From assembly GCA_002841315.1 (NCBI GenBank), contig PHEW01000001.1, forward strand, positions 248,001-312,000: DNA of 64,000 nucleotides. The letters run 5' to 3'. This document shows positions 2,997-52,006 of this stretch, in pieces. Made by a program: the position numbers and the translations under genes. The notes under the pieces were generated by a model. That model was not told where the DNA came from, made no database searches, and saw only the letters and a program-made list of their open reading frames with translations. The stretch is from Actinobacteria bacterium HGW-Actinobacteria-4. GTDB taxonomy: Bacteria > Actinomycetota > Actinomycetes > Actinomycetales > Demequinaceae. How positions within the stretch are numbered: the stretch's first letter is position 1; each line of letters begins with the position of its first letter.

Positions 2997-3625
2997 TTGT
3001 TCTCCTCCACCACGGCGAGCGCCTCACGCACACGCTGGGTTATCTCCTTGAATGACTGCGCCGCGATGATGTCCCGCGGTGCGATCCACGTCCCGCCCAC
3101 CGCGAGGACGGCGGGAATCCTCAAGTAGTCGGGCAACGTGTCGAGAGTGATGCCGCCGGTGGGCACAAACCTCACGTTGGGAAACGGGGCAGACAGCGCC
3201 TTGATCACCGGCGCTCCACCCGAGGCGCCGGCGGGGAAGAACTTCATCACTTCGATGCCAGCGTCGAGTGCCATCTGGATCTCCGTGGCGGTCACCGTGC
3301 CAGGGATCAGCGGGACACGTTGGATGGCGCACTCGCGGGCCACGTCCGCACTGAAGCCCGGGGAAACGATGTAGCTCGCGCCCGCCGCCACGGCATCGTC
3401 CACCTGCTTGGGCCGCACCACGGTGCCGGCACCCACCACGAAACCAGGACGCTCGGCAAGCTCGCGGATGACCGTGAGCGCCCCCGGCGTGCGCAGGGTG
3501 ATTTCCGCGGAGGGGAGTCCGCCGTCCTCGAGGGCGGACCCCAGCGCGTCCGCGTCTGCGGGATTCTCGATGACCACCACGGGGACCAGCGAACTGGCCC
3601 CCATGAACTCGTAGACGTCGGTCAT
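2993..3625 (-). CDS. eda: KDPG/KHG aldolase
   Basis: Class I aldolase that splits 2-keto-3-deoxy-6-phosphogluconate into pyruvate and glyceraldehyde 3-phosphate. Visible hallmarks are the catalytic E and R in AEITLRT, the VGAGTV strand, the Schiff-base lysine in MKFFPA and the phosphate-binding PTGGI. I place the start at the ATG at 3625 because it overlaps the kduD stop as ATGA; a GTG four codons upstream gives 214 instead of 210 residues but has poorly spaced ribosome-binding sequence. It lies between kduD and kdgK in one operon, completing the route from KDG to central metabolism. Confidence 0.9.
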   Translation of the reverse strand: MTDVYEFMGASSLVPVVVIENPADADALGSALEDGGLPSAEITLRTPGALTVIRELAERPGFVVGAGTVVRPKQVDDAVAAGASYIVSPGFSADVARECAIQRVPLIPGTVTATEIQMALDAGIEVMKFFPAGASGGAPVIKALSAPFPNVRFVPTGGITLDTLPDYLRIPAVLAVGGTWIAPRDIIAAQSFKEITQRVREALAVVEENK

Positions 3626-4404
3626 CGTCCTAGCCACCCTCCATCAACGGCGAGCACCGTGCCGTGGACATAGTCTGCGGCAGCGCTCGCGAGGAAGACC
3701 GTCGCGCCGCCCAGGTCGCTCGCGTCACCCCAGCGGCCAGCAGGGATGCGCGCGAGGATAGCCGTATTGCGGTCCGAGTCAGCGCGCAACGCGGCAGTGT
3801 TGTCGGTCGCGATGTACCCGGGCGCGATGGCGTTCACGTTGACGCCCTTGCCAGCCCACTCGTTGGCGAGCGCGCGGGTGACGCCCACCACGGCGCTCTT
3901 GGCGGCCGTGTAACTGACCACGTTGACGCCGCCTTGGTAGCTCAGCATTGACGCCGTGAAGATGATCTTGCCCGAGCCGCGCTCGACCATCTGGCTGCCC
4001 AGCGCGCGAGCGAGCACAAACTGACTCGACAGGTTGACCTCGATCACACGATCCCAGAGATCATCCCCATGCTCGACAGCCGGCGCACGCTCGATGGTCC
4101 CCGCGTTGTTGACCAGGATGTCGACGGGCCGCTCGAGCGCCACCACAGCATCCGCGAGCGCCTGGACGGCCCCCCGGTCAGAGAAGTCAGCGCGCATCGC
4201 CGTGAACTCGCGTCCGAGCGCTCGCACAGCCTTCTCGATCTCGCTGCCCGTGGGCTCGAGGGTCGCGCTGGCACCAATGATGTCGGCGCCCGCAGAGGCG
4301 AGCGCTGTCGCCATCGCGAAGCCAATGCCGCGGCTGGCTCCGGTGACGAGCGCGAGTCTTCCGGTGAGATCGAAGGGTTGGAGGCCGGGGTTTGCGGCGG
4401 TCAT
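3622..4404 (-). CDS. kduD: 2-deoxy-D-gluconate 3-dehydrogenase / KduD-like short-chain dehydrogenase
   Basis: NAD-dependent short-chain dehydrogenase of the KduD group, which reduces the 5-keto form of deoxygluconate to KDG in uronate breakdown. The 260-residue protein shows the Rossmann GASRGIGFA, the NNAG strand, catalytic S and YTAAK, and the KduD-specific NVNAIAPGYIATDNT and IPAGRWG stretches. The start at 4404 is chosen because it overlaps the preceding stop as ATGA and has AGGAGG about 8 nt upstream; a longer frame from 4425 lacks these. No kduI isomerase is visible here. A role as L-fucose dehydrogenase in this cluster is possible but less favoured by the motifs. Confidence 0.82.
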   Translation of the reverse strand: MTAANPGLQPFDLTGRLALVTGASRGIGFAMATALASAGADIIGASATLEPTGSEIEKAVRALGREFTAMRADFSDRGAVQALADAVVALERPVDILVNNAGTIERAPAVEHGDDLWDRVIEVNLSSQFVLARALGSQMVERGSGKIIFTASMLSYQGGVNVVSYTAAKSAVVGVTRALANEWAGKGVNVNAIAPGYIATDNTAALRADSDRNTAILARIPAGRWGDASDLGGATVFLASAAADYVHGTVLAVDGGWLGR

Positions 4405-5432
4405 GATGCTTCCTCCTGCCCACAATCGACAAGCACCTTCATGACGCTGCCTCCGCGGGCGAGCGCCTCGAACGCGGCGGGGGCCTCGGTGAGCGGCACC
4501 ACTTCAGAGATGAGCGCGTCCACCGGGATCACCTCGGTGGCGATCAGATCAATCGCGCCGTCGTAGTCAGAGCGTTCGTAGACCCGGGCGCCCAGGATTT
4601 CGAGCTCTCGCCAGAAGACGCGCTTGAGGTCCATCTCGCGTGGCTGCGGGTGAATGCCCACCGCGACGAGCCGTCCCCGCGGGCGCAACACGGCGAGCGA
4701 GGTGGTGAGACCCGGCTGGCTTCCGGACACCTCGAAGGACACATCCGCGCCAGCTCCACCGGTCGAGGCCTCCACCACAGCCACCACGTCTTGAGCGATG
4801 GGATCGATCGAGGTCAGTCCCAATTTGTCGATCACGCCGCGCCGGAAGGCGTCGACCTCCACCACCGTGACGTGCGCTCCCCGGTAGGTGGCCACGATCG
4901 CGATCAACACGCCCACCGGGCCGCCGCCAACAACCACCACGTGCTCGCCCGCTTGCACGCGACCGCGCACCACATCGTGGTGCGCGACGGCCACCGGCTC
5001 GACGAGCGCAGCGGCCCGCAACGAGAGACTGTGAGGTAGCTCAATCAGGATCTCCTGCGGCACTGTCCACAGTTGCTGGAGCGCCCCCGGCGAATCGATG
5101 CCCACAAAGGTGAGCGTGTCGCAGATGTGGCGATTGCCGGCCAGGCACGTGGGGCACTTCCCACACCACAGCAACGGCATCACGGTGACCGGAGTTCCGG
5201 GAGGCCACTCCTCGGTGCCTTCGCCGCCCGCAACCACGCGGCCAGACATCTCGTGCCCGATCACCGAGCCTTCACCCACCCGCTCATCCATCGCACCGTG
5301 AGCAATGTGGAGATCAGTGCCGCAGATCCCGTTGTAGGCGACGGCTATCTGGACGTGGCCGGGACCTGGTGGGACTGCCTCCGCCTCCACGACTGAGACG
5401 CCGTGACCTGGCTTGTAGTGTGCTGCGATCAT
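4401..5432 (-). CDS. Zinc-dependent medium-chain sugar/polyol dehydrogenase
   Basis: Medium-chain dehydrogenase of the threonine/sorbitol dehydrogenase type, 343 residues. Catalytic-zinc ligands are visible in NGICGTDLHI and GHEMSG, the structural-zinc cysteines in CGKCPTCLAGNRHIC, and the NAD-binding loop in VVVGGGPVGV. It should oxidise a secondary alcohol or an aldose with NAD. In this operon it is a candidate for a sugar or sugar-acid dehydrogenase step, for example the first oxidation of L-fucose or D-arabinose, but the exact substrate cannot be read from sequence. The start follows the fucD stop directly (TGATG); a GTG one codon earlier is the alternative. Confidence 0.78.
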   Translation of the reverse strand: MIAAHYKPGHGVSVVEAEAVPPGPGHVQIAVAYNGICGTDLHIAHGAMDERVGEGSVIGHEMSGRVVAGGEGTEEWPPGTPVTVMPLLWCGKCPTCLAGNRHICDTLTFVGIDSPGALQQLWTVPQEILIELPHSLSLRAAALVEPVAVAHHDVVRGRVQAGEHVVVVGGGPVGVLIAIVATYRGAHVTVVEVDAFRRGVIDKLGLTSIDPIAQDVVAVVEASTGGAGADVSFEVSGSQPGLTTSLAVLRPRGRLVAVGIHPQPREMDLKRVFWRELEILGARVYERSDYDGAIDLIATEVIPVDALISEVVPLTEAPAAFEALARGGSVMKVLVDCGQEEAS

Positions 5433-23404: not shown

Positions 23405-23551
23405 TCAACACACCCAGCCGTATTCGTGGCGCTCCGTGGTGAGCCAAGTGCTGAGGTTGCCGCTGTTGGAGCGGAAGTACGCGAAGCCGTTCTCGTAGAC
23501 CACCAACGTGCCAACATCGTCTCCGGGCCCTGGAGCCGCAACCCGCGACAC
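23405..23551 (-). CDS. Small hypothetical protein downstream of uridine kinase
   Basis: A 48-codon frame with a GTG start at 23551 encodes a protein with a globular-looking composition (TLVVYENGFAYFRSNSGN, then a Trp- and Tyr-containing end closing with WVC). It lies 15 nt after the uridine kinase stop and in the same frame. The other frames here give arginine-rich, shadow-like translations, whereas this one is balanced, which is the main support. The ribosome-binding sequence is weak. It may be a separate small gene, or the remnant of a longer C-terminal extension of the kinase. Confidence 0.45.
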   Translation of the reverse strand: MSRVAAPGPGDDVGTLVVYENGFAYFRSNSGNLSTWLTTERHEYGWVC

Positions 23552-23566
23552 TCTGACCGTTGGGTC

Positions 23567-24229
23567 TCACGCACCACGAACGATGCGCGGGTGCTCCACC
23601 GTCGAGTTGTCGAGCACCACGTCCGCACTCTGATCAGGGCGATGCGTCGAGAGGTAATAGCGCTGGACCCCGTAGTAGCGGGCGTTGTCGGGATGCGTGG
23701 GATCGGCAGCCACATGATCGCGTGCCGCCATGCGCCGGTACGCCTCATCGAAGCCCACCGACACAAAGATCACGAAGTCCCAATACGCGCGCAGCTCGGG
23801 ACGTTGCGCGAGCACCCCATCCACGAGCACCACCTCGTCACCCTGAGCCAACTGCCACGGCTCGTCATCAAGCGATTGGTCGGTCGCGAGGTCGTGACAC
23901 CGCGGCCGGAATCGCAGGTCCCCTCCGGGTCCCAGCGGCACCAACAGGTCCGACGTCAAGCGCTCAAGGTTGAAGGCGTGGTGCCAGTAGCCCTTCCAAT
24001 CCGTATGTCCGTCCTTGCGGCGCACCGCGCGCGGATGGTGGAAGTCGTCAATGCTGGCCTCCACCACGGCTTGGCCCTGATCTCGCAGCACCTGAGCCAG
24101 CTCGCCGCGCAACGTGGTCTTGCCTGCCGCGTCGATGCCGTCAATGGCGACGCGCAATGGATGGCCGTTGCGCACTGGAGAGGGAATCGCCTTCGCGATC
24201 GCCGCAACAATCTCTGCCCGCGCGCTCAA
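23567..24229 (-). CDS. Uridine kinase-like nucleoside kinase
   Basis: P-loop kinase of 220 residues that probably phosphorylates uridine or a related nucleoside. It has Walker A GIDAAGKTT, the substrate-binding SIDDFHHPR, and the lid-region arginines in RRMAARDHV followed by the YYGVQRYYL stretch. It is 12 nt upstream of the purC stop on the same strand but has no other nucleoside genes. Uridine kinase is the usual annotation for this group although the true substrate is rarely tested. Confidence 0.8.
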   Translation of the reverse strand: MSARAEIVAAIAKAIPSPVRNGHPLRVAIDGIDAAGKTTLRGELAQVLRDQGQAVVEASIDDFHHPRAVRRKDGHTDWKGYWHHAFNLERLTSDLLVPLGPGGDLRFRPRCHDLATDQSLDDEPWQLAQGDEVVLVDGVLAQRPELRAYWDFVIFVSVGFDEAYRRMAARDHVAADPTHPDNARYYGVQRYYLSTHRPDQSADVVLDNSTVEHPRIVRGA

Positions 24230-24241
24230 CGTCAGGTCCGG

Positions 24242-25135
24242 CTAGCTGATCGTGAGCCTGTCATACGCCTCAAGGTACCGCTGCCGGGTCTTGGCGACCA
24301 CAGCATCAGGCAAGGGCGGGGGTGGGGTGTCGCCTGTACGGTCCCAGCCGGACTCCGGCGAAGTCAGCCAATCGCGCACAAACTGCTTGTCGTAGCTGGG
24401 CTGCGCACGCCCGGGCTCCCACGAATCTGCGGGCCAGAACCGCGAGGAGTCCGGCGTCAGCACCTCGTCACCAATGACAATTCGCCCGGCGCCATCGCGC
24501 CCGAACTCGAACTTGGTGTCAGCAAGAATCACGCCACGCGTGGCCGCGATCTCGTGCGCCCGCGTATAGACCTTGAGGGTCAGGTCCCGCAACGCCTCAG
24601 CGTCATCGCGGCCGATGCTTTCCGCCACCGCGTCAAAACTCACGTTCTCGTCATGGTCGCCTAGGGCGGCCTTGGTGGCGGGGGTGAAGATCGGGGTGGG
24701 CAGCCGCGAGCCATCCTGGAGGCCTTCCGGCAGCGCCACTCCGCATACCTCGCCAGTGGAGCGATACTCCGCCAACCCGGATCCCGTCAGGTAGCCACGT
24801 GCCACGCACTCCACGGGGAACATGTCCAGCCGCTGGCAGACCATCGCACGCCCGGCAACCTCCGCAGGCACTTCCGCCTCCACGGTGTGATCGGGCACGA
24901 TGTCACGGATCTGATCGAACCACCACAAGGTGAGCGCGGTGAGGATCGCACCCTTACCGGGGATTTCGGTGGGCAGCACCCAGTCATAGGCGCTGATGCG
25001 GTCGGAGGCCACCACTAACACCACGTCGCCGCGCGGGTGCGGCGCCACGGGCTCGTAGAGGTCGCGGACCTTGCCAGAGTAGATGTGACGCCAGCCCGGC
25101 ACCACCGGAGCAACGGGCAACACGACCTCGCCCAC
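24242..25135 (-). CDS. purC: SAICAR synthetase
   Basis: ATP-dependent condensation of CAIR with aspartate in purine synthesis. The 297-residue protein has the family starts YSGKVRDLYE and VASDRISAYD, and PTEIPGKGAILTALTLWWF. The true start is the GTG at 25135, 2 nt after the purD stop; the longer frame reaching 25456 is antisense to nothing and has shadow-like composition. It is longer than the E. coli enzyme and of the fungal/actinobacterial type. Operon with purD. Confidence 0.95.
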   Translation of the reverse strand: MGEVVLPVAPVVPGWRHIYSGKVRDLYEPVAPHPRGDVVLVVASDRISAYDWVLPTEIPGKGAILTALTLWWFDQIRDIVPDHTVEAEVPAEVAGRAMVCQRLDMFPVECVARGYLTGSGLAEYRSTGEVCGVALPEGLQDGSRLPTPIFTPATKAALGDHDENVSFDAVAESIGRDDAEALRDLTLKVYTRAHEIAATRGVILADTKFEFGRDGAGRIVIGDEVLTPDSSRFWPADSWEPGRAQPSYDKQFVRDWLTSPESGWDRTGDTPPPPLPDAVVAKTRQRYLEAYDRLTIS

Positions 25136-25137
25136 GG

Positions 25138-26406
25138 CTAGTCCGTCACCACGTTGGCAGCATTGAGCGCGATGTCGGTGCGGTGGTGCGAGCCCGCCAG
25201 CCCGATATGGGCGATCCCCGCATACGCCCGATCGCGGGCCTGCGCCAGGTTCTCGCCCTTGCCCACCACCGACAACACCCGGCCGCCGGACGCGACCAGC
25301 GAGCCGGCACCGTCCGTCGAGGTACCCGCGTGAAGCACGTGCACACCGGGTTCGGCCTCTGCCTCGTCGATACCCGTGATGGTGTCGCCGCTGCGCACTT
25401 CGCCAGGGTATCCATGGGCGGCAATCACCACCGTGACCGCGGAGTCGTCGCTCCACTTCAGCGTTGGCAGTTCGCCGAGCGAACCTTGCGCGGCGGCGAG
25501 CAGCACCCCGGCGAGCGGAGTCTCGAGCCGTGCGAGCACGGCCTGGGTCTCCGGGTCGCCAAAGCGGGCGTTGAACTCCACCACGCGCGTGCCCTTGGAC
25601 GTGAGCGCAAGCCCCACATAGAGCACTCCCTGGAACGGGGTGCCGCGGCGTGCCATCTCATCGACGGTGGGTTGCGCGACGGTGCGCACCACCTCCTGCT
25701 CGAGCGTGGCCGGGGCCCACGGCAGCGGAGTGTAGGCGCCCATGCCGCCAGTGTTGAGGCCTTGGTCGCCGTCGTACGCGCGCTTGAAGTCCTGTGCCGG
25801 CTTGAGGGGCACCACTGTGGTTCCGTCGCATAGGCAGAACAGTGAGACTTCGGGCCCGTCCAGATAGTCCTCGACCACCACGGTGCCACCCGCGGCAAGG
25901 ATCGCGTCACCATGGGCGAGCGCCTCGTCGCGATCAGAGGTCACCACCACACCCTTGCCTGCCGCGAGCCCGTCGTCCTTGACCACGTGGGGAGCGCCGA
26001 ACTCGCGTAGCGCGGTCCCGAGCTCACTCTGAGAGGTACACACTCGGGAGGCGGCAGTAGGAACGCCCGCGGCGTCCATGACTTCCTTGGCGAACGCCTT
26101 GGAACCCTCGAGCATCGCGGCCTGCGCGCTGGGGCCAAAGCACGGGATGCCAGCGGCGCGCACGGCATCGGCCACTCCCGCCACCAGCGGGGCCTCCGGC
26201 CCTACCACTACCAGGTTGGCGCCAACCTCAGTCGCGAGCGCGGCCACAGCAGAACCGTCCATGGGGTCAACGCTGTGAAGCTCAGCAATACGGCCGATGC
26301 CGGGGTTGCCTGGCGCGGCATGGATGGCGGTGACGGCGGGGTCAAGGTGGAAGGCGCGGGCGAGCGCGTGCTCGCGGGCGCCACCTCCGACAACAAGGAT
26401 GATCAC
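25138..26406 (-). CDS. purD: Phosphoribosylamine-glycine ligase (GAR synthetase)
   Basis: ATP-grasp enzyme for the second step of purine synthesis, 422 residues. Recognisable features are [13 protein letters not shown] at the N terminus, [16 protein letters not shown], the ATP-grasp lysine in [13 protein letters not shown], and [11 protein letters not shown] metal-binding residues. It is followed directly by purC. The 130-bp region upstream includes the terminator of the GH5 gene, so purD must have its own promoter between 26407 and 26492. Confidence 0.96.
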
Positions 26407-26492
26407 GTGAGCGAGTCTAACTTGATGTGCAACAAGCGCCGTCGGGCAGCCTCAATGGCGCTGGCGAGCAGGTGGAACGTGGTCACCACGCG

Positions 26493-26528
26493 CCAAAGGC
26501 CCCGACGCCGAAGCATCGGGGCCTTTGG
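26493..26528 (-). terminator. Terminator of the GH5 glycanase gene
   Basis: A perfect 13-bp stem (CCAAAGGCCCCGA pairing with 26516-26528) with a 10-nt loop starts 8 nt after the glycanase stop codon. The CCAAAG/CTTTGG ends give an A/T edge on both strands. It separates the glycanase transcript from purD. Confidence 0.85.
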
Positions 26529-26536
26529 GTACTTAC

Positions 26537-29389
26537 CTACGGGGCGTAGACCTCCAGTTCAGCGATCTGCCACCACTCGGTTGCTGAGCCCGTTTGCGTG
26601 ATCCGGATGTACCGGGCGCCCTGAGCATCAAACGTCACCGGCCGCTTCCATCCGAAGCCGGGGCCGTTCGCGACCGTGGTCCACGACGTGCCATTGGTGG
26701 ACAGCTCGACGGTGAACATGTCGGGGTAGTCCCAGCGCTGATCTGTGCGAGTACGCATCGTGACCTGTTCGATGGTCTGAACGCTACCCATGTCAACCTG
26801 GAACCACTGTCCAGGTGTCTGCGTGGCACCGGTGGACCAACGCGTCCACGGATCGCCATCAAACGCTGCACCGTACGTCTCGCCTGGTCCAATACTCGAC
26901 GCGGTTGCCGTCCAACCGCTCGTGCTGAGCAATGTGGGGCTGAACGTGTCAGTGCCGTCAGCAAACCGACTGACGATCCTGATCAGCGGATCGTTGGCGC
27001 TGAAGTTGTTGGATCCAAACAGTGACAGGCGCGTCTTGAACGCATCGGCATCGTCCGAGTTGATGATAGGCACCTGGTTGTTGTTCGAGTTGTACAGGCC
27101 CCAGTAGCCGCCTCCACCGTTCTGAGGCAGCTTCACCTTGTAGCCCCAGTTGGTCCATGACACATCGAGGTTGTTAAGCCCCGCCATGAATCGGGCCCAA
27201 ACGTCGTCGTAGTAGTAGAACGAGTACTCGCCGTACAGAACCGGAATTCCCGGAGAGGTCAGCTTGGGGACAACCTCCGCGAGCTGGTTCGTCACGACCT
27301 GGTTCTGAGCATCCCAATCCTTACCGTTGGGCATGTCATACGGGTGGAGTTGGTACACCACGTTGGTCCACCCATAAACGGACGGATCCGCGATCGAGCC
27401 CCAGCCAAAGAAGGCGGCGATGTGGATCGTGTGATCGGGGTCGATCGCACGGACGGCGTTGTAGATGCGGTCGTAGATCGCACTCTTGAGCGCCACATCA
27501 TCCGCGTCCTCTCCGTAGTCAATGAGGGGCTCGTTGATGAAGTCGTATCCAGCCACCACCGGGTTGCCGTTGTATCGCGTTGCGATCGCTTCCCATATCT
27601 CGACTACCCAGTCCTGATACTCCGTGTTTCCCCAGAACTCGTTGGGGTTTGGTCCCATCCGGCCACATGATCCCCAAGGGCAGCCGCCGCCAGGCACCGT
27701 GTGAAGGTCAAGGAGCACATACATTCCGCGCTCGCCGGCTTCCTCGATGATCCAGTCAATGTACTTCCAGGGATCGGACTTCCAGGTGCCGTCAAGGTTG
27801 AGGAACTCGTTCCAACCCATGGGCAGGCGAATCGTGTTGAGTCCCATAGCCGCGATGTTGTCGAGGTCGGCCTCGGTCACCCAGGTGTCCTTGTGGGTGG
27901 TGTAAATCTCCTGGGCCACTGTGTCGCCAAACCGATCGTCAAGTGCCAGTCGTAGCGAGTAGTCGTCGTTGTTCAAGCTCACGTTGAGCTCCCCGATGGA
28001 CCACCATGACGAGGCCGAGCCGGTCTGAGTGATGCGCAAGTAGCGCGAGCTCACGGCAGGGAAGTTCACCGTTGTCGCCTTGAACGTGCCGGCTCCCGTC
28101 GCGACCGTGCTCCATGACGAGCCGTTGTCTGACACCGCGATGGTGTAGCCGCGCGGGTAGTCGTTCTCCGAGGAGGTGTTCTTCTCCGTGTCCATCACCA
28201 CATTGTTGAAGGTCATGGTGGCACCAAAGTCGACCTGCACGTACTCGCCGCCAACTTGCGCGGCAGAAGTGGTCCAGCGCGTCGCCACGTTGCCGTCGGT
28301 CAGCGCTGCCGTTGACCCGCTGCCCGAGGACGTCAGGCCCCAGCCCGTCCGGTCAATGGCGGTACTTGACGAGATCGCGACCTCCGAAATCGCCCACCAG
28401 TTGCTCTTGGAACCCGTCTGGGTGATGCGGATGTAGCGGCCCCAGGTGGACGTCCACAGGTCTTCGGTGACGATGCGGTTAGTTCCGAAGCCGCTCGCGA
28501 CCTTGGTCCAGTTGGTGTTGTCGTGCGAGACCTCAATCGCATACATGGCCGGATAGTCGTTCGGGTATCCAGCGCCCGAATCAAAGAAGATCTTGTTGAA
28601 CTCCTTCACGCCCCCCAGGTCAACGGTGAAGCTCTGCCCCGGAACCTGGTTGGTGCCCGTGGCCCACGCGCTCGTGATGTCGCCGTCGAGCGCAGCCGCC
28701 GCGCTGTAACCCCACCCGGTGACCGATGCGGACGCTGTGTGTGCGCCATTGTGCATCGTTGGATCGGAGAACAGGTTGAGTTCAGCGATCGACCACCAGC
28801 TCCCCTTGGTGCCCAACTGCTGCACACGCACGTACTGCGCTACCTGCGGCGCAAACCTCGTGGTCGTGATCTCTGCACTCACCACATCGGTGGGTGTCCC
28901 GGATGCGCGGGCGACAGATCGCCAGGTCGTGCCGTTGTCCGAGACGAGCACCTCGTATTCGGCGGGCCAGTCGTTAGTGGACGGTCCCGCATCGAGAGTG
29001 ATTCGGCTCATGAGAGTAGGCGAACCAAGATTCACCTGGATCCACTCGGCACCCGCTTGGGCTGAACCGCTGGTCCATCGGCTGTTGAGGTCTCCGTCGA
29101 GGACATTCCCGGCATTCGAAGATGAGCCCGTGGCTGACCAGCCACCACGGTCGAGGGCAAATTCGCCCAGAGGCGACATCCAGTCCTCGTAGGTGAGCCA
29201 ACCACCTAGGTTGGTGCCGCGCAGACTGACAACGTCGCCGGTGCCATAGTTATCGCGCAACACGGGTCCGTCCGCCTTCAGGAAGTCGTCGGGGCCTATG
29301 GCTGCACTCGCGGGCATTGCACCTACGGTGGCGATGGCGCCTCCCGCCAGGAGTGCCGCGAGCGCTCCTGAAATAAACCGTCTCTTCAT
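26537..29389 (-). CDS. Secreted GH5 glycoside hydrolase with four F5/8 type C (CBM32-like) modules
   Basis: Extracellular glycanase of about 950 residues. A signal peptide (to about residue 31) is followed by the first GH5 strand (LRGTNLGGWLTYEDW, 57-71), then three discoidin-type modules (about 78-208, 215-341, 345-472), then the rest of the GH5 barrel (474 to about 815) and a fourth module (825-951). The acid/base E621 (INEP) and nucleophile E722 (LYGEYSF) are present, so the split catalytic domain looks intact. The LGGW start resembles the exo-beta-1,3-glucanase-like GH5 groups; the substrate is not certain. Start at the second ATG, 6 nt from AGGAG. The next gene is a ROK regulator. Confidence 0.9.
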   Translation of the reverse strand: MKRRFISGALAALLAGGAIATVGAMPASAAIGPDDFLKADGPVLRDNYGTGDVVSLRGTNLGGWLTYEDWMSPLGEFALDRGGWSATGSSSNAGNVLDGDLNSRWTSGSAQAGAEWIQVNLGSPTLMSRITLDAGPSTNDWPAEYEVLVSDNGTTWRSVARASGTPTDVVSAEITTTRFAPQVAQYVRVQQLGTKGSWWSIAELNLFSDPTMHNGAHTASASVTGWGYSAAAALDGDITSAWATGTNQVPGQSFTVDLGGVKEFNKIFFDSGAGYPNDYPAMYAIEVSHDNTNWTKVASGFGTNRIVTEDLWTSTWGRYIRITQTGSKSNWWAISEVAISSSTAIDRTGWGLTSSGSGSTAALTDGNVATRWTTSAAQVGGEYVQVDFGATMTFNNVVMDTEKNTSSENDYPRGYTIAVSDNGSSWSTVATGAGTFKATTVNFPAVSSRYLRITQTGSASSWWSIGELNVSLNNDDYSLRLALDDRFGDTVAQEIYTTHKDTWVTEADLDNIAAMGLNTIRLPMGWNEFLNLDGTWKSDPWKYIDWIIEEAGERGMYVLLDLHTVPGGGCPWGSCGRMGPNPNEFWGNTEYQDWVVEIWEAIATRYNGNPVVAGYDFINEPLIDYGEDADDVALKSAIYDRIYNAVRAIDPDHTIHIAAFFGWGSIADPSVYGWTNVVYQLHPYDMPNGKDWDAQNQVVTNQLAEVVPKLTSPGIPVLYGEYSFYYYDDVWARFMAGLNNLDVSWTNWGYKVKLPQNGGGGYWGLYNSNNNQVPIINSDDADAFKTRLSLFGSNNFSANDPLIRIVSRFADGTDTFSPTLLSTSGWTATASSIGPGETYGAAFDGDPWTRWSTGATQTPGQWFQVDMGSVQTIEQVTMRTRTDQRWDYPDMFTVELSTNGTSWTTVANGPGFGWKRPVTFDAQGARYIRITQTGSATEWWQIAELEVYAP

Positions 29390-29609
29390 CATGTCTCCTT
29401 TGACATTGGTGAGAATCTTCGGCGCGACGGACTCTTAACACAGTGTCCTGTTGAAGGGGACCGCCACTTCGAGCAGGACTTAACTTATCACGTGAACTAA
29501 TGGGTCGCAAGAGATGTGGCCACAGGATTCGTGTGGCGGCCAACACCACCGCAATCCCTGATCGGCGCTTCGCGCTCGCTGCCCTCGCCCCCTACGACAC
29601 AATGGTCTG

Positions 29610-30854
29610 GTGACACCCGACTCCGCGGCACCTCGTCGAACTAGGCCGAGCACGACGACCACCGCGACAATGCGCCAACAGCATCGCACTGCAGTCTTGA
29701 CCGAGATTCTGCTGGCCGGAACCACAACTCGCGCGGACCTGATGCGAATCGTTGGCCTCTCAAGCGCGTCCATCACCAACATCGTTGGGGACCTGATCGC
29801 TGAAGGGGTGGTTGCCGAGGTCGGTTCCCGATCATCGAGTGGCGGCCGTCCGGTCGCGGTGTTGGGGCCCCACCCACAAGGGGCGTACGCCCTCGGCGCA
29901 GACGTCGGCGAACGTGGCGTCGCCGTTGAGCTGTTCGATCTCTCGATGCGCGTCATCGATCGCGAAGAGGTAGAAGGAGATCACACCGAGCCTGTGAGTC
30001 GCATCATTGACGACATCAGCATCGCCGTCGCTGCGCTCCGCGAACGCCATCACGACATATGGCCCAGACTCACCGGGCTAGGGCTTGCGCTTCCTGGTCC
30101 TGTCGAGGTCAATGCCGACGGTAGCCAGACGTTACATGCGCAGAGCCTGGGATGGCCGGCTGTGCCTGTTGGACATTTTGCGGCCATGAACCTGCCCGTG
30201 TTCGCCGACAACGGAGCGAAGGCGCAAGCGAGAGCAGAGATGTGGTTTGGCGCTGCGCGAGGTGCCGAGCACGCCGTCGTGGCCTTGTTTGGGCGCGGGG
30301 TGGGCATGGGCACCATCATTGACGGCGCGTTGCACCGCGGCGCGCACTCAAGCGCAGGCGAGTGGGGACACGTCTCGATAAGACCCGGTGGTCGCGAGTG
30401 CCGCTGCGGCAATCTGGGCTGCATCGAGGCGTACGCAGGCGCTGACGCGATCCTTGAGGAATGGGAACGGCGAGGAGGACCACCTCAGCAGAGCAGTGGC
30501 TGGGACTCGATGGTGGCTCTCCTGGACGCCGCCGCAACCGGCGACAACGAAGCTGCCGGAGTGGTCAACGACGTCGTCGACGTGATTGGCGCGGGACTTG
30601 GCGGATTGATCAACCTCCTCAACCCTGAGCGTGTGGTCGTAGGAGGATGGGTCGGCATGCTGCTCATGGACCGCTGCCAGCAAGCGCTCAGAAGCGCCAT
30701 GGATGCATACTCACTCACGCGGCCGGCAAGCCAGGCCACGCTTGTGCCAAGCCACTTCCGCGGCGACGCCATCGCGCTTGGCGCAGCAATCCTGGCCTTC
30801 GAGCCACTCCTCGACGGTTCCTACCGATCGCGGAGGCACCACGTCGCAGGGTGA
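29610..30854 (+). CDS. ROK-family transcriptional regulator (NagC/XylR-like)
   Basis: Sugar-responsive repressor of up to 414 residues. An N-terminal winged helix (TTRADLMRIVGLSSASITNI) is fused to a ROK sugar-binding domain with the ALGADVGERGVAV strand, the zinc motif CRCGNLGCIEAYAG, and GAGLGGLINLLNPERVVVGG. The kinase aspartate region LALPGPV is present, but repressor members normally lack kinase activity. It diverges from the GH5 gene and is likely to control it. The annotated GTG has no ribosome binding site; the ATG at 29670 is equally possible. Confidence 0.87.
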   Translation: MTPDSAAPRRTRPSTTTTATMRQQHRTAVLTEILLAGTTTRADLMRIVGLSSASITNIVGDLIAEGVVAEVGSRSSSGGRPVAVLGPHPQGAYALGADVGERGVAVELFDLSMRVIDREEVEGDHTEPVSRIIDDISIAVAALRERHHDIWPRLTGLGLALPGPVEVNADGSQTLHAQSLGWPAVPVGHFAAMNLPVFADNGAKAQARAEMWFGAARGAEHAVVALFGRGVGMGTIIDGALHRGAHSSAGEWGHVSIRPGGRECRCGNLGCIEAYAGADAILEEWERRGGPPQQSSGWDSMVALLDAAATGDNEAAGVVNDVVDVIGAGLGGLINLLNPERVVVGGWVGMLLMDRCQQALRSAMDAYSLTRPASQATLVPSHFRGDAIALGAAILAFEPLLDGSYRSRRHHVAG

Positions 30855-30858
30855 GGCG

Positions 30859-32157
30859 CTATTCGCCGCGCGCGTGCAACAGGTCGTGGCGCACGATGTT
30901 CTCCTCGCGACCCGGGCCCACGCCGATGGTGCTGATGCGGCAGCCAGAGATCTCCTCGAGCGCGAGCACGTACTTCTGAGCCGCGTCGGGCAAATCGGAG
31001 AACTCACGAGCACCAGAGATGTCCTCGGTCCAGCCCTCGAACTCCTCGTAGACCGGCACGGCCGCAGCGAACGCGGCCTGGTCCTGCGGGAGGTCTTGGT
31101 AGCGCACGCCGTTGACGTCGTAGGCCACGCACACGGGAATCTTCTCGAAGCCGGTCAGGACGTCGAGCTTGGTCAGCACGAAGTCAGTGAGACCGTTCAC
31201 GCGGGACGCATAGCGAGCGATCACGGCGTCGTACCAACCGCAGCGACGCGGACGCCCCGTGGTGGTCCCAAACTCGTGGCCCACGTCGCGCAGGCGCTCG
31301 CCGTCGGCGTCGAGCAACTCCGTAGGCATTGGCCCCTCGCCCACGCGGGTGGTGTAAGCCTTGACCACGCCAATCACCGAGTCGATGCGCGCGGGCCCCA
31401 CGCCGGAGCCCGTGCATGCGCCACCGGCCGTCGCGTTGGATGAGGTCACAAACGGGTAGGTTCCGTGGTCCACGTCGAGCATGGTGGCCTGGCCGCCCTC
31501 AAAGAGCACGGTCTCGCCGCGATCGAGCGCAGCGTTCAACACGAGCGAGGTATCGGTCACCATGGGTGCCACACGGTCGCGGTACATGAGGAGTTCTTCT
31601 GCTACCTCGTCCACCGTGATGGCGCGCCGGTTGTAGACCTTCACCAGCAGGTGGTTCTTCTGTTCGAGCGAACCCTCGATCTTGTCTCGCAGCACCGATT
31701 CATCGAACAGGTCGCCCATACGGATTCCCAGGCGGTTGATCTTGTCGGCGTACGCAGGGCCGATGCCGCGGCCAGTAGTCCCGATCTTGCGTTTGCCGAG
31801 GAACCGCTCGGTGACGTTGTCGAGCGTGCGCGCATAAGGCGCAATGATGTGCGCGGCATTGGAGATGAGCAAGGCGGAGGTGTCCACACCGCGGGCCTCC
31901 AGCGCATCAAGCTCGCCAAAGAGCACTCCGATGTCAATGACCACGCCGTTGGCGATCACGGGCGTCACGCCCGGCGACAGAATTCCGGAAGGCAACAGGT
32001 GGAGCGCATACTTCTCGTCGCCAATCACCACGGTGTGGCCGGCGTTGTTGCCGCCGTTGAACTTGACCACGTAGTCCACCCGGGACCCGAGTACGTCGGT
32101 AGCTTTGCCTTTACCCTCGTCGCCCCACTGGGCACCTACAAGCACTACTGCGGGCAT
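30859..32157 (-). CDS. purA: Adenylosuccinate synthetase
   Basis: GTP-dependent synthesis of adenylosuccinate from IMP and aspartate, first committed step to AMP. The 432-residue protein has the signature QWGDEGKGK, the NGGNNAGHT region, and [22 protein letters not shown] precedes the ATG. It converges tail-to-tail with the ROK gene with only 4 bp between stop codons. Confidence 0.97.
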
Positions 32158-46855: not shown

Positions 46856-48739
46856 TCAGCGCACCTCGACCTGCACGGCCTGCGTGCCATGATCGATCGA
46901 GAAGTGGTGGCGGCCGCGTTGCACGCGCTCCACGGTGCCCGCCGGATCAGTCGCCACGCCTGCAGACGCGAGGACCACGTCGAGCACCTCGCCGGTGAGC
47001 GTGCCCTCGGGCAGCGTCGCAACATACCAGGCGTTCGCCCGACGCGTGATGGCCGCACCACCCTCAAGGGCACCCGAAGCGAACACCGAGAGCACGGCCG
47101 CGTCGGACACCCGCACGTGTTCGCTCCACAGTGCTCCCGTGCCCGCGAACTCGCCCGCAAGCGCGACCGTGGGCGGTGTGCCGACACCAGCCTTCTGGAG
47201 GTCGGGAGGCGCGAGCGGCGCGAACTCCTCGATGCGCACGCCAAGGGCCGCCTGGAGGGACCCGAGGTAGCCTCCGGAAGTGATGTGCATCGACTCGTCG
47301 ACGATGCCAGTCTGGAAGGTCACCACGAGATGGCCACCGCCGTCCGCGTAGGCAGAGAGATTGTCAAGCGCTGCCGATGTCGCACAGAAGAGGCTCGGCA
47401 CGATGACCGTGTCGTAGCCCGACAGATCGGAATCGGCTTTCACGAAGTCGGTGAGCACGTTGCGCTCAAAGAGCGCCGAGTACCACGCGAAGACGTGGTC
47501 AACATAGCTCAGCCTCGTAGGCACCGCTTGTTGCTCGAGACTTCGCCAGCTATCCCACTCAAAGACGATGGCTACGCGCGCATCGACGCGACTGCCCTCG
47601 ACGTCCGCGAGGTCGGCAAGGTCGGCACCGAGCTCAGTGATCTCGCGCCACATTCTGGTGTCGGTGCCTGCGTGCGGCAGCATGCCAGAGTGGAACTTCT
47701 CTGCTCCTGCCACCGACTGTCGCCATTGGAAGAACAAGATGCCGTCGGCACCGCGTGCGACCGCTTGCTTCGACCATGCCGCCATCTCACCCGGCGCCTT
47801 GGGCGCGTTTCTCGCCCGCCAGTTCACTGCACTCGGCGCTTGCTCCATGAGTATCCACGGCTTGCCGTGGCGCAGCGACCGCATGAGGTCGCGCGTCATG
47901 GCCGCGTACATCGGGCTGAGAGGATCGGCGGGGTCGGGGTACGAGTCGTCGGAGACCACATCCACCTCCTGGGCCCAAGCCCAGTAGTCAGCACCCTTGA
48001 AGAAGCCCATGAAGTTGGTGGTGACCGGGATGGAAGGTGTCGCCGCGCGCGCGATCGCAGCTTCGGCCCGATACAGCTCGATCAACTGATCCGAGCTGAA
48101 CCGGTCAAAGTCCAACAGCTGCCCCGGGTTACCGAATGACGGCATGGCTCGTGGCGGCTGCACCTCGGCGAACTCCGAATAGCGTTGCGACCAGAACGCC
48201 GTACCCCACGCCGTGTTCAGGGCGTCCACCGTGCCGTATCGAGCCTTGAGCCAAGCCCTGAAGGCATCGGCGCTCGTTTCGCAGTAGCAGTGGCTCACGT
48301 GGCAGCCGTACTCGTTATTAATGTGCCACATCGCGAGCGCGGGATGGTCGGCGTAGCGTTCGGCGATCCGGGACGCGAGCCGCGCCGCAAGCCGGCGGTA
48401 CACGGGCGAACTCGGACAGTATTGCTGGCGACTGCCTGCCGACAGGCGCACGCCATCCTTCGTGACTGGCAGTACCTCGGGATAGCGATGCGTGAGCCAC
48501 GGCGGCGGTGACGCGGTTGCCGTCGCGAGGTCAACGCGCACGCCCGCCGCGTGCAACCCATCCATGACGCGGTCGAGCCACCCGAACTCGAACTCACCCT
48601 CGCGCGGCTCGAGCATCGCCCACGAAAAGATGCCGAGGCTCACCATCGTGACGCCTGCCTCTTGCATGAGCCGAGTGTCCTCGGCCCAGACCTCTTCCGG
48701 CCACTGCTCGGGGTTGTAGTCCCCGCCGTACCAGATCAC
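46856..48739 (-). CDS. GH42 beta-galactosidase-family glycosidase, copy 1
   Basis: Intracellular glycosidase, 627 residues, no signal peptide. The acid/base E143 lies in INNEYGC and the nucleophile E299 in WILMEQAPS. Four cysteines (C108, C146, C151, C153) form the zinc site of classical GH42 enzymes. GH42 enzymes release terminal galactose or, in some groups, L-arabinopyranose. GTG start with GAAGGG upstream. It follows the permease gene by 1 nt. Confidence 0.92.
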   Translation of the reverse strand: MIWYGGDYNPEQWPEEVWAEDTRLMQEAGVTMVSLGIFSWAMLEPREGEFEFGWLDRVMDGLHAAGVRVDLATATASPPPWLTHRYPEVLPVTKDGVRLSAGSRQQYCPSSPVYRRLAARLASRIAERYADHPALAMWHINNEYGCHVSHCYCETSADAFRAWLKARYGTVDALNTAWGTAFWSQRYSEFAEVQPPRAMPSFGNPGQLLDFDRFSSDQLIELYRAEAAIARAATPSIPVTTNFMGFFKGADYWAWAQEVDVVSDDSYPDPADPLSPMYAAMTRDLMRSLRHGKPWILMEQAPSAVNWRARNAPKAPGEMAAWSKQAVARGADGILFFQWRQSVAGAEKFHSGMLPHAGTDTRMWREITELGADLADLADVEGSRVDARVAIVFEWDSWRSLEQQAVPTRLSYVDHVFAWYSALFERNVLTDFVKADSDLSGYDTVIVPSLFCATSAALDNLSAYADGGGHLVVTFQTGIVDESMHITSGGYLGSLQAALGVRIEEFAPLAPPDLQKAGVGTPPTVALAGEFAGTGALWSEHVRVSDAAVLSVFASGALEGGAAITRRANAWYVATLPEGTLTGEVLDVVLASAGVATDPAGTVERVQRGRHHFSIDHGTQAVQVEVR

Positions 48740-48740
48740 G

Positions 48741-49673
48741 TTAGCCCTTCACTCCACCGGTCGCGAGACCGGTCTGCCAGAACCGCTGCAGGTACAAGAA
48801 CGCGATGATCAGCGGGATGATCGACAAGAATGCGCCGGTGATCACGGTCGAGAACAACGCTTGTGCACCACCGCCCGCCGCCGACGTCGCCTGCAGTTGC
48901 GCGAGTCCAACGGTCAGCGGCAGGAGGTCCCCGCTGTTGAGCATGATGAGCGGCAAGAGGTAGTTGTTCCAGGTCGCCACGAGCGTGAACAGCATCACCG
49001 TGACCATGCCGGGCGCGAGCAGCCGGAGGGCCACCTGCCAGAAGATCCGGAACTCGCCCGCGCCATCCACGCGTCCAGCCTCCAAGAGCGAGATCGGTAC
49101 GGCATCGGCCGCGTACACGCGCATCAGAAACACGCTGAACGGACTCACGAGCGAAGGCAGAATGACGGACCACGGGGTATTGGTAATGCCCATCGACGAG
49201 AACAGCAAATAGGTGGGGATCGCCAGTGCCGTGAGCGGAATCATGATCGCGCCCAAGGTGACGCTGAACAGCAACTTGTTGCCCGGGAACGTGTACTTCG
49301 CGAACGCATACCCCGCCATCGTCGCGAGCAAGGTGGCGCCGATCGCGCTCACGCCGGCGTACAGGATCGTATTCAGCGTCCACCGCAAGTAGATGCCGTC
49401 CTTGTACGCGAATACCTCCACTATGTTCTGGAACAGGTTGAAGTCCGGCCCAAACCACAGTCCGAACGTGGTGAACAGGTCGCTGTTGTCCTTGGTCGAG
49501 GACATGAAGAGCCATATCAGCGGCACCATGAAGTAGACCACACACAACCACATCACCACTGTGAGAAAGCTGCTGCGGCGTTTTGCGCGGTTGGCTGGCC
49601 TGCGGCGCCTTGCGCGGTGGGACGGCTTGCGGGACAGCGCTGTCTCCGGAATGGTCGCCTGGTGGGCGGTCAT
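48741..49673 (-). CDS. Carbohydrate ABC transporter permease (MalG-like)
   Basis: Inner-membrane subunit of the second importer, 310 residues with six helices after a basic N-terminal stretch (KPSHRARRRRPANRAKRR). The permease signature EAGRVDGAGEFRIFWQVAL binds the ATPase. Start at 49673 with AGGAGG upstream and an ATGA overlap with the upstream permease. The ATP-binding subunit is missing from the cluster, as is common for this family in actinobacteria, which use a shared MsiK-type ATPase. Confidence 0.92.
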   Translation of the reverse strand: MTAHQATIPETALSRKPSHRARRRRPANRAKRRSSFLTVVMWLCVVYFMVPLIWLFMSSTKDNSDLFTTFGLWFGPDFNLFQNIVEVFAYKDGIYLRWTLNTILYAGVSAIGATLLATMAGYAFAKYTFPGNKLLFSVTLGAIMIPLTALAIPTYLLFSSMGITNTPWSVILPSLVSPFSVFLMRVYAADAVPISLLEAGRVDGAGEFRIFWQVALRLLAPGMVTVMLFTLVATWNNYLLPLIMLNSGDLLPLTVGLAQLQATSAAGGGAQALFSTVITGAFLSIIPLIIAFLYLQRFWQTGLATGGVKG

Positions 49674-50557
49674 GACTGGAACCTCCTGCTCTGGGTGCTC
49701 AATTGCACAACATACGAGACGATCATGATGACGAAGCCCAGCAAGAATGCGATCGCGGCAGCGTAGCTGACGTCCTGGTTCACGAACGCAAGGTTGAAGG
49801 CGTAATAGTTGGGCGTGAACCCTTGCGTGATCCCGGTAGGCGCGATCTCCACCAGCAGCTTCGGCTCGTTGAATATCTGGAAACTCCCGATGATCGAGAA
49901 GATGGTGGTGAGGAGGATCGCCGGCCGGATCATGGGAATCTTCACACTCCAGGCCAGTCGCCATTGGCCCGCACCGTCGATCTCGGCGGCCTCGTAGAGC
50001 TCGCCGGGAATCGACTTGAGCGCTGCGTACATGACAATCATGTTGTAGCCGACGAACGCCCACGTAATGATGTTCATGATCGCGAATAGGATGAGCTCAT
50101 CCGACAGCAAATTGATCGAGGGCAACCCGACTCCGCTGGAGATCTGGGCAATGAGTCCAAAGCTTTGCCCGTAGATGTAGCCCCACATCAGTACAGCGAT
50201 GACGCCGGGAACCGCGTATGGCAAGAAGATGAGCAGGCGCAGCGTCCTGCTGCCGCGGGCTCGACCGGAGTCGAGCGCGAGCGCGAAGAACAGCGCAAGC
50301 CCAAGCATGATGGGCACCTGTGTCACCAGAATCAGCGCGGTGCGCCCGAGTCCCTCGAGAAAGCGGGAATCCTCGAACGCGCGCGCATAGTTCTCCAGGC
50401 CCACGAAGCTCACGCCGCCGACAAGCCGGTTCACATAGAGACTCAGGTACCCCGAGTAGGCGAGCGGCGCGACGAACATCGCCGCGAACACTGCAAAAAA
50501 CGGGAGGATGAACCCGTAGGCAACCAGGGTCTGCTTACGCTGAATCGTTTTGGACAT
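49670..50557 (-). CDS. Carbohydrate ABC transporter permease (MalF-like)
   Basis: Partner permease of 295 residues with six helices and the ATPase-contact loop EAAEIDGAGQWRLAWSVKIP. ATGA overlap with the following permease gene. The preceding binding-protein gene is separated by a 72-bp gap that contains a strong hairpin. The transported compound is probably a galactoside or related oligosaccharide, from the GH42 enzymes encoded alongside. Confidence 0.92.
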   Translation of the reverse strand: MSKTIQRKQTLVAYGFILPFFAVFAAMFVAPLAYSGYLSLYVNRLVGGVSFVGLENYARAFEDSRFLEGLGRTALILVTQVPIMLGLALFFALALDSGRARGSRTLRLLIFLPYAVPGVIAVLMWGYIYGQSFGLIAQISSGVGLPSINLLSDELILFAIMNIITWAFVGYNMIVMYAALKSIPGELYEAAEIDGAGQWRLAWSVKIPMIRPAILLTTIFSIIGSFQIFNEPKLLVEIAPTGITQGFTPNYYAFNLAFVNQDVSYAAAIAFLLGFVIMIVSYVVQLSTQSRRFQS

Positions 50558-50592
50558 CTCGAGTTCCTTCGCGTTGGTGTGCGTTCGGCCGG

Positions 50593-50624
50593 GGGCGGCC
50601 CGGGGTTGGGTCCCCGGGCCGCCC
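50593..50624 (-). terminator. Intercistronic hairpin after the oligosaccharide-binding protein gene
   Basis: GGGCGGCCCGGGG (50593-50605) pairs perfectly with 50612-50624 around a 6-nt loop, starting 6 nt after the binding-protein stop. There is no U tract. Position and design match the hairpin at 8502-8545, suggesting transcript stabilisation or partial termination that favours binding-protein expression. Confidence 0.7.
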
Positions 50625-50629
50625 GCGTG

Positions 50630-52006
50630 CTATCCGTTAACCGTGAAACCCTGCTGGGTTGCATACTCTTCAAGATCGGCCTGCCAGGCATCCAGGCCTG
50701 CCGAGAGATCGCCCTTGGCCGCGACCGCGGCCCCGAACGTTTCATTGAAGCTCGTGTACGCGAACTCCATGAACGGCAGCCACTCCCACTCGGTGTCAAC
50801 CGTTTCGGAGATTCCCGCGAACACCTCATTGACCCTCTGCCCACCGTAGAACTCAGGCTCTTGAGCGGCGAACACTGGGTCCTCCAGCACCGAGATCTTC
50901 GTCGGGAAGAAGTTCTGCTGAGTTGCGAACAGCAACGCGGGTTCCTGTGCGTGGTTGATCCACTTCGCCAGCTCGTAGGCCGCGATCGGGTTCTCCGACG
51001 CCTTGAGAACCGCGTTGACCGAGCCGCCCCAGTTGCCAGAGGAAGGGTTGTTGACGTCCCACTGCGGCAGCGGCGCGGCGCGCCACAGACCCGAGGTGTC
51101 AGCTGCGGCACCGGAGAGGAAGACCGGAGCCCACGCCGCCGTCAGCCAGCCGGCGTACTTGCCCTGGTTGAGACCCTGGTACCACTCGTCGGTGAAGTCC
51201 GCATCGACCGAGACGAGATCGTTCTGGATGAGGTCCTGCCAGTAGCTGACCACTTCCTTAGCGTCAGCGCCGTTCACGTTGATCGTGACACCCTCGCCGC
51301 CGTCGTAGCCGAATGGCTTGACGCCAGCCTGCCAGAGTAGCCCGACCCACCCGGCGCCCTGTCCCGGCGCCATGTTCGAAATGTACGAGTCGGTGTTCGC
51401 TCGCACCAGTTCCGCAGCGGTCTTGTAGTCCGCCCACGTGGCGGGCGGCTCCGTGACGCCTGCCGCAGCGAGGATGTCCTCGCGGTACAGGTTGCCCAAG
51501 GGACCCGAGTCCTGCGGGATTGCCAGCACCTGTCCGTTGGCGACAACCTGGTTCCAGACCCACGGCACGTAGTCGTCCGCGAGGTCCGTCGCACCGTATG
51601 GCGTGAGATCGAGAAGCTCGCCGGTCACGGCGAACGATGTCACAAACTGTTGCTCAAGCTGGACGACGTCGGGTGCGCCGCTACCTGCCTGCGAAGCGGT
51701 GCGCACCTTCGAGTAGTGATCCAGGCCCTGGCCGACGTTCTCGACCGTGACGCTGATCGCGGGGTACGCCGCCTCGAACAGCGCGACCTGATCTTCAACG
51801 CCGGGTACCCAGGTCCAGAACGTCAGGTTGGTCGGAGTGGTCAGCGCTTCTAGGCGCTGCTCATCCGTGATACGACCGTCGGTGCTGCCCGTGGGCTCAG
51901 TGGTGGTGCCCGTGTCTGCGTCGGACGAGCAGCCGCTGAGCGTCATTGCTACCACGGTAGTGATCGAGGTGATCGCGACCGCGGCCTTGCGTGCTCCGTG
52001 CCTCAT
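50630..52006 (-). CDS. Extracellular solute-binding lipoprotein of the oligosaccharide importer
   Basis: Lipid-anchored receptor of the maltose-type (SBP_bac_1) family, 458 residues. The signal peptide (MRHGARKAAVAITS) ends at lipobox TLSGC, followed by a Thr/Ser/Asp-rich linker and the LTFWTWVPGVEDQ strand with aromatic residues. The start at 52006 overlaps the stop of the GH42 gene upstream (ATGA); the frame to 52261 is shadow. The ligand is probably a galactoside. Confidence 0.92.
   Translation of the reverse strand: MRHGARKAAVAITSITTVVAMTLSGCSSDADTGTTTEPTGSTDGRITDEQRLEALTTPTNLTFWTWVPGVEDQVALFEAAYPAISVTVENVGQGLDHYSKVRTASQAGSGAPDVVQLEQQFVTSFAVTGELLDLTPYGATDLADDYVPWVWNQVVANGQVLAIPQDSGPLGNLYREDILAAAGVTEPPATWADYKTAAELVRANTDSYISNMAPGQGAGWVGLLWQAGVKPFGYDGGEGVTINVNGADAKEVVSYWQDLIQNDLVSVDADFTDEWYQGLNQGKYAGWLTAAWAPVFLSGAAADTSGLWRAAPLPQWDVNNPSSGNWGGSVNAVLKASENPIAAYELAKWINHAQEPALLFATQQNFFPTKISVLEDPVFAAQEPEFYGGQRVNEVFAGISETVDTEWEWLPFMEFAYTSFNETFGAAVAAKGDLSAGLDAWQADLEEYATQQGFTVNG

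Follow-up and report, generated by a model that had tools for sequence, protein, structure and literature searches.

A secreted GH5 glycoside hydrolase of Actinobacteria bacterium HGW-Actinobacteria-4 whose barrel is predicted to be split behind strand 1 by an insert of three F5/8C modules

Introduction

The window analyzed here, a stretch of 64,000 nucleotides from Actinobacteria bacterium HGW-Actinobacteria-4, contains a gene for a likely secreted GH5 enzyme in which a motif resembling the first barrel strand is separated from the rest of the catalytic domain by three F5/8C (discoidin-type) modules. The locus raises the question whether the two pieces form one barrel and, if they do, where such an enzyme came from and what the modules inside it might be for. 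The reading preferred here, held with a probability of roughly 0.75, is that of a split-barrel GH5 enzyme with substrate-binding modules, whose products would be imported, finished inside the cell and placed under the control of a ROK-family regulator.

Gene and domain features

An earlier note on this DNA had located the gene at 26537-29389; the location holds, but the strand (minus) was missing and the end left out the first Met, the true end being 29392. The reading frame is open and has no internal stop. The features of the gene and of its divergent neighbor are as follows, residues being numbered in the 951-aa protein.

26537..29392 (-): whole gene (951 aa, ATG start), coding for a secreted GH5 enzyme that has three F5/8C modules inserted and a fourth at the C terminus
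29300..29392 (-): likely Sec signal peptide, residues 1-31, end ASA-A (by eye)
29165..29281 (-): first barrel piece, residues 38-76, with strand 1 (RGTN, 58-61) between an N-terminal hairpin and the first part of loop 1 (model 2; alignment to 8z2w/3n9k/9ku5, weak alone; invariant residues)
28763..29164 (-): inserted F5/8C module I1, residues 77-210 (Pfam, own HMM, module tree)
28364..28762 (-): inserted F5/8C module I2, residues 211-343, own-HMM match 213-343 (Pfam, own HMM, module tree)
27977..28363 (-): inserted F5/8C module I3, residues 344-472 (Pfam, own HMM, module tree)
26948..27973 (-): second barrel piece, residues 474-815, strands 2-8 (Pfam, model 2, fold comparison)
27530..27532 (-): presumed catalytic acid/base E621 (NEP), invariant in the six-row alignment
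27227..27229 (-): presumed catalytic nucleophile E722 (GEY), invariant in the six-row alignment
26540..26938 (-): C-terminal F5/8C module C1, residues 819-951, own-HMM match 820-950 (Pfam, own HMM, module tree)
29610..30854 (+): ROK-family gene, divergent to the GH5 gene, likely a NagC/Mlc-type regulator (ROK, PF00480, E 9.5e-47)

F5_F8_type_C (PF00754) matched four stretches of the protein (E 4.4e-80, 266.5 bits against a cut-off of 28.2), which places the modules in the CBM32 / F5/8C family by their jelly-roll sequence. Module boundaries were set with an HMM derived from the four modules of this same protein; it gave the same order as Pfam, with three modules in the gap and a fourth at the C terminus, as had been described from the letters alone. 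The four modules are 35-45% identical to each other, and almost no linker lies between the inserted three. Cellulase (PF00150) matched residues 499-751 (E 1.2e-29, 104.1 bits against a curated cut-off of 23.5), the match beginning at position 15 of the 272 positions of the profile, with the first 14 absent.

GH5 enzymes carry a pair of glutamates in NEP and GE motifs, an arginine in strand 2 and a histidine and a tyrosine in strand 6. In a six-row alignment (A3) the residues R522, N620-E621-P622, H683, Y685 and G721-E722 were invariant, as were R58, G59, G63, W65, L66, E69 and M72 of the first barrel piece; both catalytic glutamates are intact, as first reported, and their roles are taken by us from GH5 convention. 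The enzyme was assigned to GH5 by the Cellulase match above its curated cut-off, by the catalytic motif set and by its barrel fold, the fold being that of a moderate-confidence model. Long open frames opposite other ORFs were seen at 23426-24664 and at 28523-29065, the latter opposite the GH5 gene; both are probably due to chance.

A predicted split in the catalytic barrel

The first GH5 strand had been placed at residues 57-71 and the next barrel element only at about 474, and comparison with solved chains is consistent with both positions. In phmmer searches residues 51-75, with LRGTNLGGW at 57-65, aligned separately and in the correct order to strand 1 of 9ku5, 8z2w and 3n9k (i-Evalues of 37, 3.7 and 67, respectively, insignificant alone), whereas the main match began at 476-489, and strands 2-8 lie within 474-815. 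Spacing was determined in a set of 33 GH5 proteins (24 module-less, one single-insert and eight triple-insert). The distance from the strand-1 motif to NEP was 164-167 residues in 13 of the 24 module-less relatives (the other 11 gave no match to the motif pattern). In the single-insert relative it was 296, and the eight triple-insert proteins all fell within 555-561, that of the window at 561.

Models were built from six sequences each, an AlphaFold2 model of the full-length protein (model 1) and a model of a version trimmed to residues 36-818 (model 2). Model 1 had a mean pLDDT of 60 and a pTM of 0.42, with a pLDDT of about 25-30 in the strand-1 segment (54-66), and showed within 474-815 six strands of at least three residues and one of two residues. 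Model 2 (mean pLDDT 66.7, pTM 0.55) has a strand at 58-61 (local pLDDT about 73), followed by seven further strands at 520-526, 558-565, 613-617, 655-661, 678-683, 718-720 and 745-749, which agrees at moderate confidence with the strand order that structure prediction was expected to confirm. When model 2 was compared with solved structures, the 50 matches listed, identified as GH5 glycoside hydrolases in part by their titles, began at model residue 1-20, ended at 770-783 and covered 272-364 residues. The best fold match among those listed was the GH5_22 enzyme 9ku5 (Z 34.0, 2.8 A, 364 residues); Candida exo-1,3-glucanase gave Z 28-29. Alignments of model 1 to GH5 structures likewise started at residues 43-60; in the same comparison the fourth module matched the CBM32 chains 4a44/4a41 with Z about 19.

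The GH5 barrel is thus predicted to be interrupted after strand 1 and assembled from two pieces, a reading on which sequence spacing, phylogeny and the moderate-confidence model agree. The protein would be a TIM-barrel glycoside hydrolase with internal CBM-type modules, strand 1 standing before them and strands 2-8 after them, in part on the evidence of that model. A construct cut at the Pfam-annotated catalytic domain would miss strand 1 and would probably misfold.

Relatives and history of the layout

Relatives were defined as matches to the catalytic piece at E <= 1e-40; the samples overlap, and most were drawn from larger groups. Among 44 genomes of the genus a full-length match was found only in the window's own genome, and a match to any part in 14 of the 44. 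In the family (47 genomes, run at 1e-15) no relative at this threshold was found besides the window, the best other match having an E-value of 5.3e-27. The order (396 genomes, run at 1e-15) yielded the relative G334, the class (394 genomes, run at 1e-28) G533, G514 and G496, and 200 genomes of the family of G334 yielded G851 and again G334; G533 and G514 were re-found among 22 genomes, and G496 among 5. No further relative at E <= 1e-40 was found among 396 genomes of the phylum; a scan of genome contigs gave relatives in three Paenibacillus. Distant GH5 matches occurred in 40 plasmid records, the best among the 20 listed being 28.5% identical over 86% of the query. Viral contigs, scanned for more depth, gave a single relative, the insert-less L066 (found again as L067 and L102). 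L066 holds an uninterrupted GH5 gene at 239-1522 of an IMG/VR contig. A large ORF nearby (2903-5347) resembles a phage structural gene by eye, and the GH5 gene is possibly cargo or part of a host stretch.

All eight distinct close relatives, the homologues whose layout had been named as a check, carry modules at the same place, seven of them three modules and G334 one. The catalytic piece is 55-77% identical to those of the seven other triple-insert genomes, three of them Paenibacillus. Besides the window, 31 proteins chosen from the catalytic-piece loci were examined with the HMM of the window protein's own four modules (left out were duplicates and L003, L011, L012, L013, L018, L044 and L046), and absence of a module means absence of a match to this HMM. 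None of 23 more distant GH5s matched it; the 24th, L066, showed only Cellulase in Pfam. The contrast with the eight close relatives goes beyond chance.

In a tree built from the sequence behind the insert, all nine proteins with inserted modules formed one clade (100/99), with single-insert G334 sister to the eight triple-insert proteins (99/100) and the uninterrupted L066 next to the inserted clade on a long branch. In the module tree, I2, I3 and C1 each formed one clade across the window, four other genomes and three Paenibacillus (the locus of G514 ends before C1); I1 did not, its nine rows needing two changes, and the long branch of G334's single module joined no partner firmly. These trees show a one-clade origin of the inserted form and inheritance by position of I2, I3 and C1. 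Because each of the three is one clade, the gene probably had its three-module layout before it spread; the layout appears to span two phyla, that of the actinobacterial window and that of Paenibacillus, and in G334 three modules may have been reduced to one by loss.

Two other explanations of the layout were considered. The segment 474-815 might fold as a complete barrel of its own, LRGTNLGGW being a separate N-terminal element; the confinement of the Pfam Cellulase match to 499-751, the low pLDDT of residues 54-66 in model 1 and the insignificance of the strand-1 alignments when taken alone would agree with this. The Cellulase match, however, lacks the beginning of its profile, the segment supplies seven strands in model 2 (the eighth being that at 58-61) and six of at least three residues in model 1, R58, G59, G63 and W65 are invariant in a motif that stands 164-167 residues before NEP in 13 insert-less relatives, and the structural alignments of both models take in the N-terminal piece. 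A self-contained barrel, the case that the earlier note had named as fatal to its proposal, is therefore judged very improbable and was rejected. An artefact of sequencing or assembly, or a chimaeric gene of one genome, might be suspected from the pattern within the genus, where only the window's own genome has the full-length match, but an uninterrupted frame and the presence of the insert in eight other genomes, with all three modules at the same place in seven, make this explanation negligible, and it too was rejected. The layout itself is real and inherited.

Genomic context and probable gain of the gene

In the window purD begins at 26406 and purA ends at 30859, and the GH5 and ROK genes lie between them (purA, purD and purC were named by NCBIfam and Pfam). 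purA was found in 43 of the 44 genomes of the genus, and loci were returned for 30, the window's own included. In the other 29 neither GH5 nor ROK was found in purA flanks of up to 1.5 kb; purD begins within the 1.5-kb flank in 17 of them. The stretch 25138-32157 of the window accordingly reads as a GH5/ROK gain in this species inside a purine-gene neighborhood. The catalytic piece is 76-77% identical to those of G533 and G514, which belong to another order, as against 63% to that of G851 from its own order. Since both genes are absent from the 29 genus loci and nearer kin occur in another order, sequence comparison fits a horizontal gain.

The ROK gene is matched over most of its length by the NagC and Mlc models, far below their cut-offs, and both G533 and G851 have a homologue 53% identical to it in the cluster around their GH5 gene. 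The order in G851 is ROK, triple-insert GH5, solute-binding protein (SBP), two permeases and insert-less GH5; in G533 it is GH1, SBP, two permeases, insert-less GH5 and ROK, divergent to the triple-insert GH5. GH3 adjoins the inserted GH5 in G496 and in two Paenibacillus according to Pfam, and in the third (L052) by reading. On contig C11 of the window's own genome (L103, 6123-14798) a second ROK, an SBP, two permeases, a GH5 and a GH3 are found, with identities to G851 of 75% (SBP), 70% and 80% (permeases) and 62% (GH5). The lack of a signal peptide, where stated, and the second permease of each cluster were assigned by eye or by similarity to scanned proteins. This gene context suggests glycan scavenging, and the C11 cluster probably supplies the other half of this system, for import and for the steps inside the cell. 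Between the starts of the GH5 and ROK genes the best inverted repeat resembling an operator had a 9-bp arm with one mismatch, and none is claimed. Elsewhere in the window (46856-54111) a cluster combines two genes for GH42 beta-galactosidases with those for a solute-binding protein and a permease, likely for galactoside uptake.

Proposed role of the enzyme and its modules

Loop 1 of a (beta/alpha)8 barrel comes directly after strand 1, on the side of the barrel that carries the active site. E69, which does not vary in the family alignment, is aligned by phmmer with a glutamate of Candida Exg that is Glu27 by counting in the 400-residue chain; this residue is altered in PDB 2pbo ('E27Q mutant' by its title) and presumably lies in the sugar pocket. 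Module I1 starts eight residues after E69. Since the insert emerges from beta-alpha loop 1 so few residues after E69, it should lie near the pocket, and binding sites beside the active-site cleft are plausible, a proximity drawn from general barrel geometry, the models having low inter-domain confidence.

In the proposed scheme the secreted GH5 enzyme would cut a glycan, most likely beta-glucan, from chain ends. This polysaccharide is most likely also the ligand of the F5/8C modules, which, since they protrude from loop 1, may keep it close to the edge of the active-site pocket. A sugar ABC importer would bring in the products, a GH5 enzyme without signal peptide and a GH3 enzyme would complete their breakdown, and the system, including the GH5 gene of the window, would be regulated by the sugar-sensing ROK protein.

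The substrate is the part of this scheme for which the nearest solved structures offer a different candidate. By profile search (A2) the closest solved relative is the GH5_22 exo-beta-xylosidase GE32 (9ku5/9kua, E 2.3e-37), also the best match by fold, so that a xylosidic or other beta-glycan is possible, though rather less likely than not. The exo-1,3-glucanases of Aspergillus and Candida follow among exo-enzymes (E 1.3e-25 to about 1e-23; Z 28-29 as against 34 for GE32), and in the comparison with solved structures as a whole GH5_22 is followed by GH5_9 and other GH5 enzymes. The endoglucanase CelC scores among the exo-glucanases by sequence and fold; with GE32 closest and CelC in this position, both the beta-glucan substrate and the exo mode are less than certain. 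The GH1 and GH3 neighbors fit beta-glucosides, without deciding the matter. GH5_22 also includes a characterized endo-beta-1,4-glucanase, as stated in passages of PMC3526467. Beta-glucan is favored here.

As to the modules, they might serve mainly as structural spacers or for adhesion, without guiding substrate to the pocket. F5/8C modules of neuropilins and lactadherin bind proteins or lipids, and such modules are among the matches. Among the closest solved sequences, searched separately for I1 and I3, there are nevertheless CBM32s from a glucanase/chitosanase and from alginate lyases that bind glycans. The three module positions are kept in the same order in all eight triple-insert proteins, and D366, W373, S421 and W464 (numbering of I3 of the window) recur in 38 of 38 modules, although the fold itself may account for this. 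On the other side, the xylan profile of the GH10 enzyme Pm25 is almost identical without its inserted CBMs, according to passages of PMC7848910. A mainly structural or adhesive role is on balance unlikely, and binding of the substrate polysaccharide by the inserted modules is preferred.

Comparison with known systems

That modules usually lie beside catalytic domains and not within them, as the earlier note had remarked, is a fair generalization, but module insertion in a barrel has precedents, one of them after strand 1 of GH5. Among the open-access literature matches listed, no title or abstract start described F5/8C or CBM32 inside GH5; the F5/8C triplet in a bacterial GH5 enzyme, not found in the literature listed, is what appears new here.

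The C-terminal module (827-949) gave the best match (E 1.3e-10) to the F5/8C-type CBM32s of the Paenibacillus IK-5 glucanase/chitosanase (2rv9, 4zxe), the inserts matching at E 6.5e-5 (I1) and 1e-4 (I3). In the IK-5 enzyme the CBM32 modules stand outside the catalytic domain. GE32 of Geobacillus, closest by sequence and fold, has no insert of such size at this point: its strand-1 stretch lies at 36-58 of the chain and the main match runs from 63. The fungal GH5_9 exo-1,3-beta-glucanases (Candida Exg, 1cz1/3n9k; Aspergillus, 8z2w) share RG.NLGGW...E, a near-whole-chain fold and the catalytic motifs, but have no inserted modules and are about 20-24% identical in structural alignment.

As secreted glycanases with tandem CBMs in a loop of a TIM barrel, the GH10 xylanases of the Pm25 and Bacteroides Xyn10C type resemble the enzyme of the window. 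According to passages of PMC7848910 their CBMs, one to three in number, are inserted between strand 3 and helix 3, and deletion of the CBMs left the xylan-degrading profile of Pm25 almost unchanged; the insertion site, the modules (CBM4 or CBM22) and the hosts (Bacteroidetes) differ from those found here. The GH5 enzyme of the window and its relatives, with no insert, one module or three modules, offer a natural series in which to ask what is gained by a binding module inside the barrel.

The nearest parallel in position is that of the plant GH5_14 exo-beta-1,3-glucosidases (rice OsGH5BG, cotton GhGH5BG), in which passages of PMC3526467 and PMC10858996 describe an extra module inserted after barrel strand 1. 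In the latter source GH5 pieces 25-53 and 194-495 flank a fascin-like module at 64-176, for which glucan binding is suspected. By these descriptions, the plant enzymes carry one fascin-like beta-trefoil, whereas the bacterial enzyme carries three F5/8C modules; with such inserts and a prokaryote assembly it falls outside GH5_14. It is conceivable, though doubtful, that loop 1 of exo-glucosidase-like GH5 enzymes is a recurrent docking site for glucan-binding modules, that plants and bacteria filled it independently, the former with a beta-trefoil and the latter with CBM32-type modules, and that the bacterial line grew from one module to three, the resulting collar feeding chain ends to an enzyme processive on insoluble glucan. 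Taken side by side, the plant and bacterial enzymes suggest that the same loop was used twice, with modules of unrelated folds.
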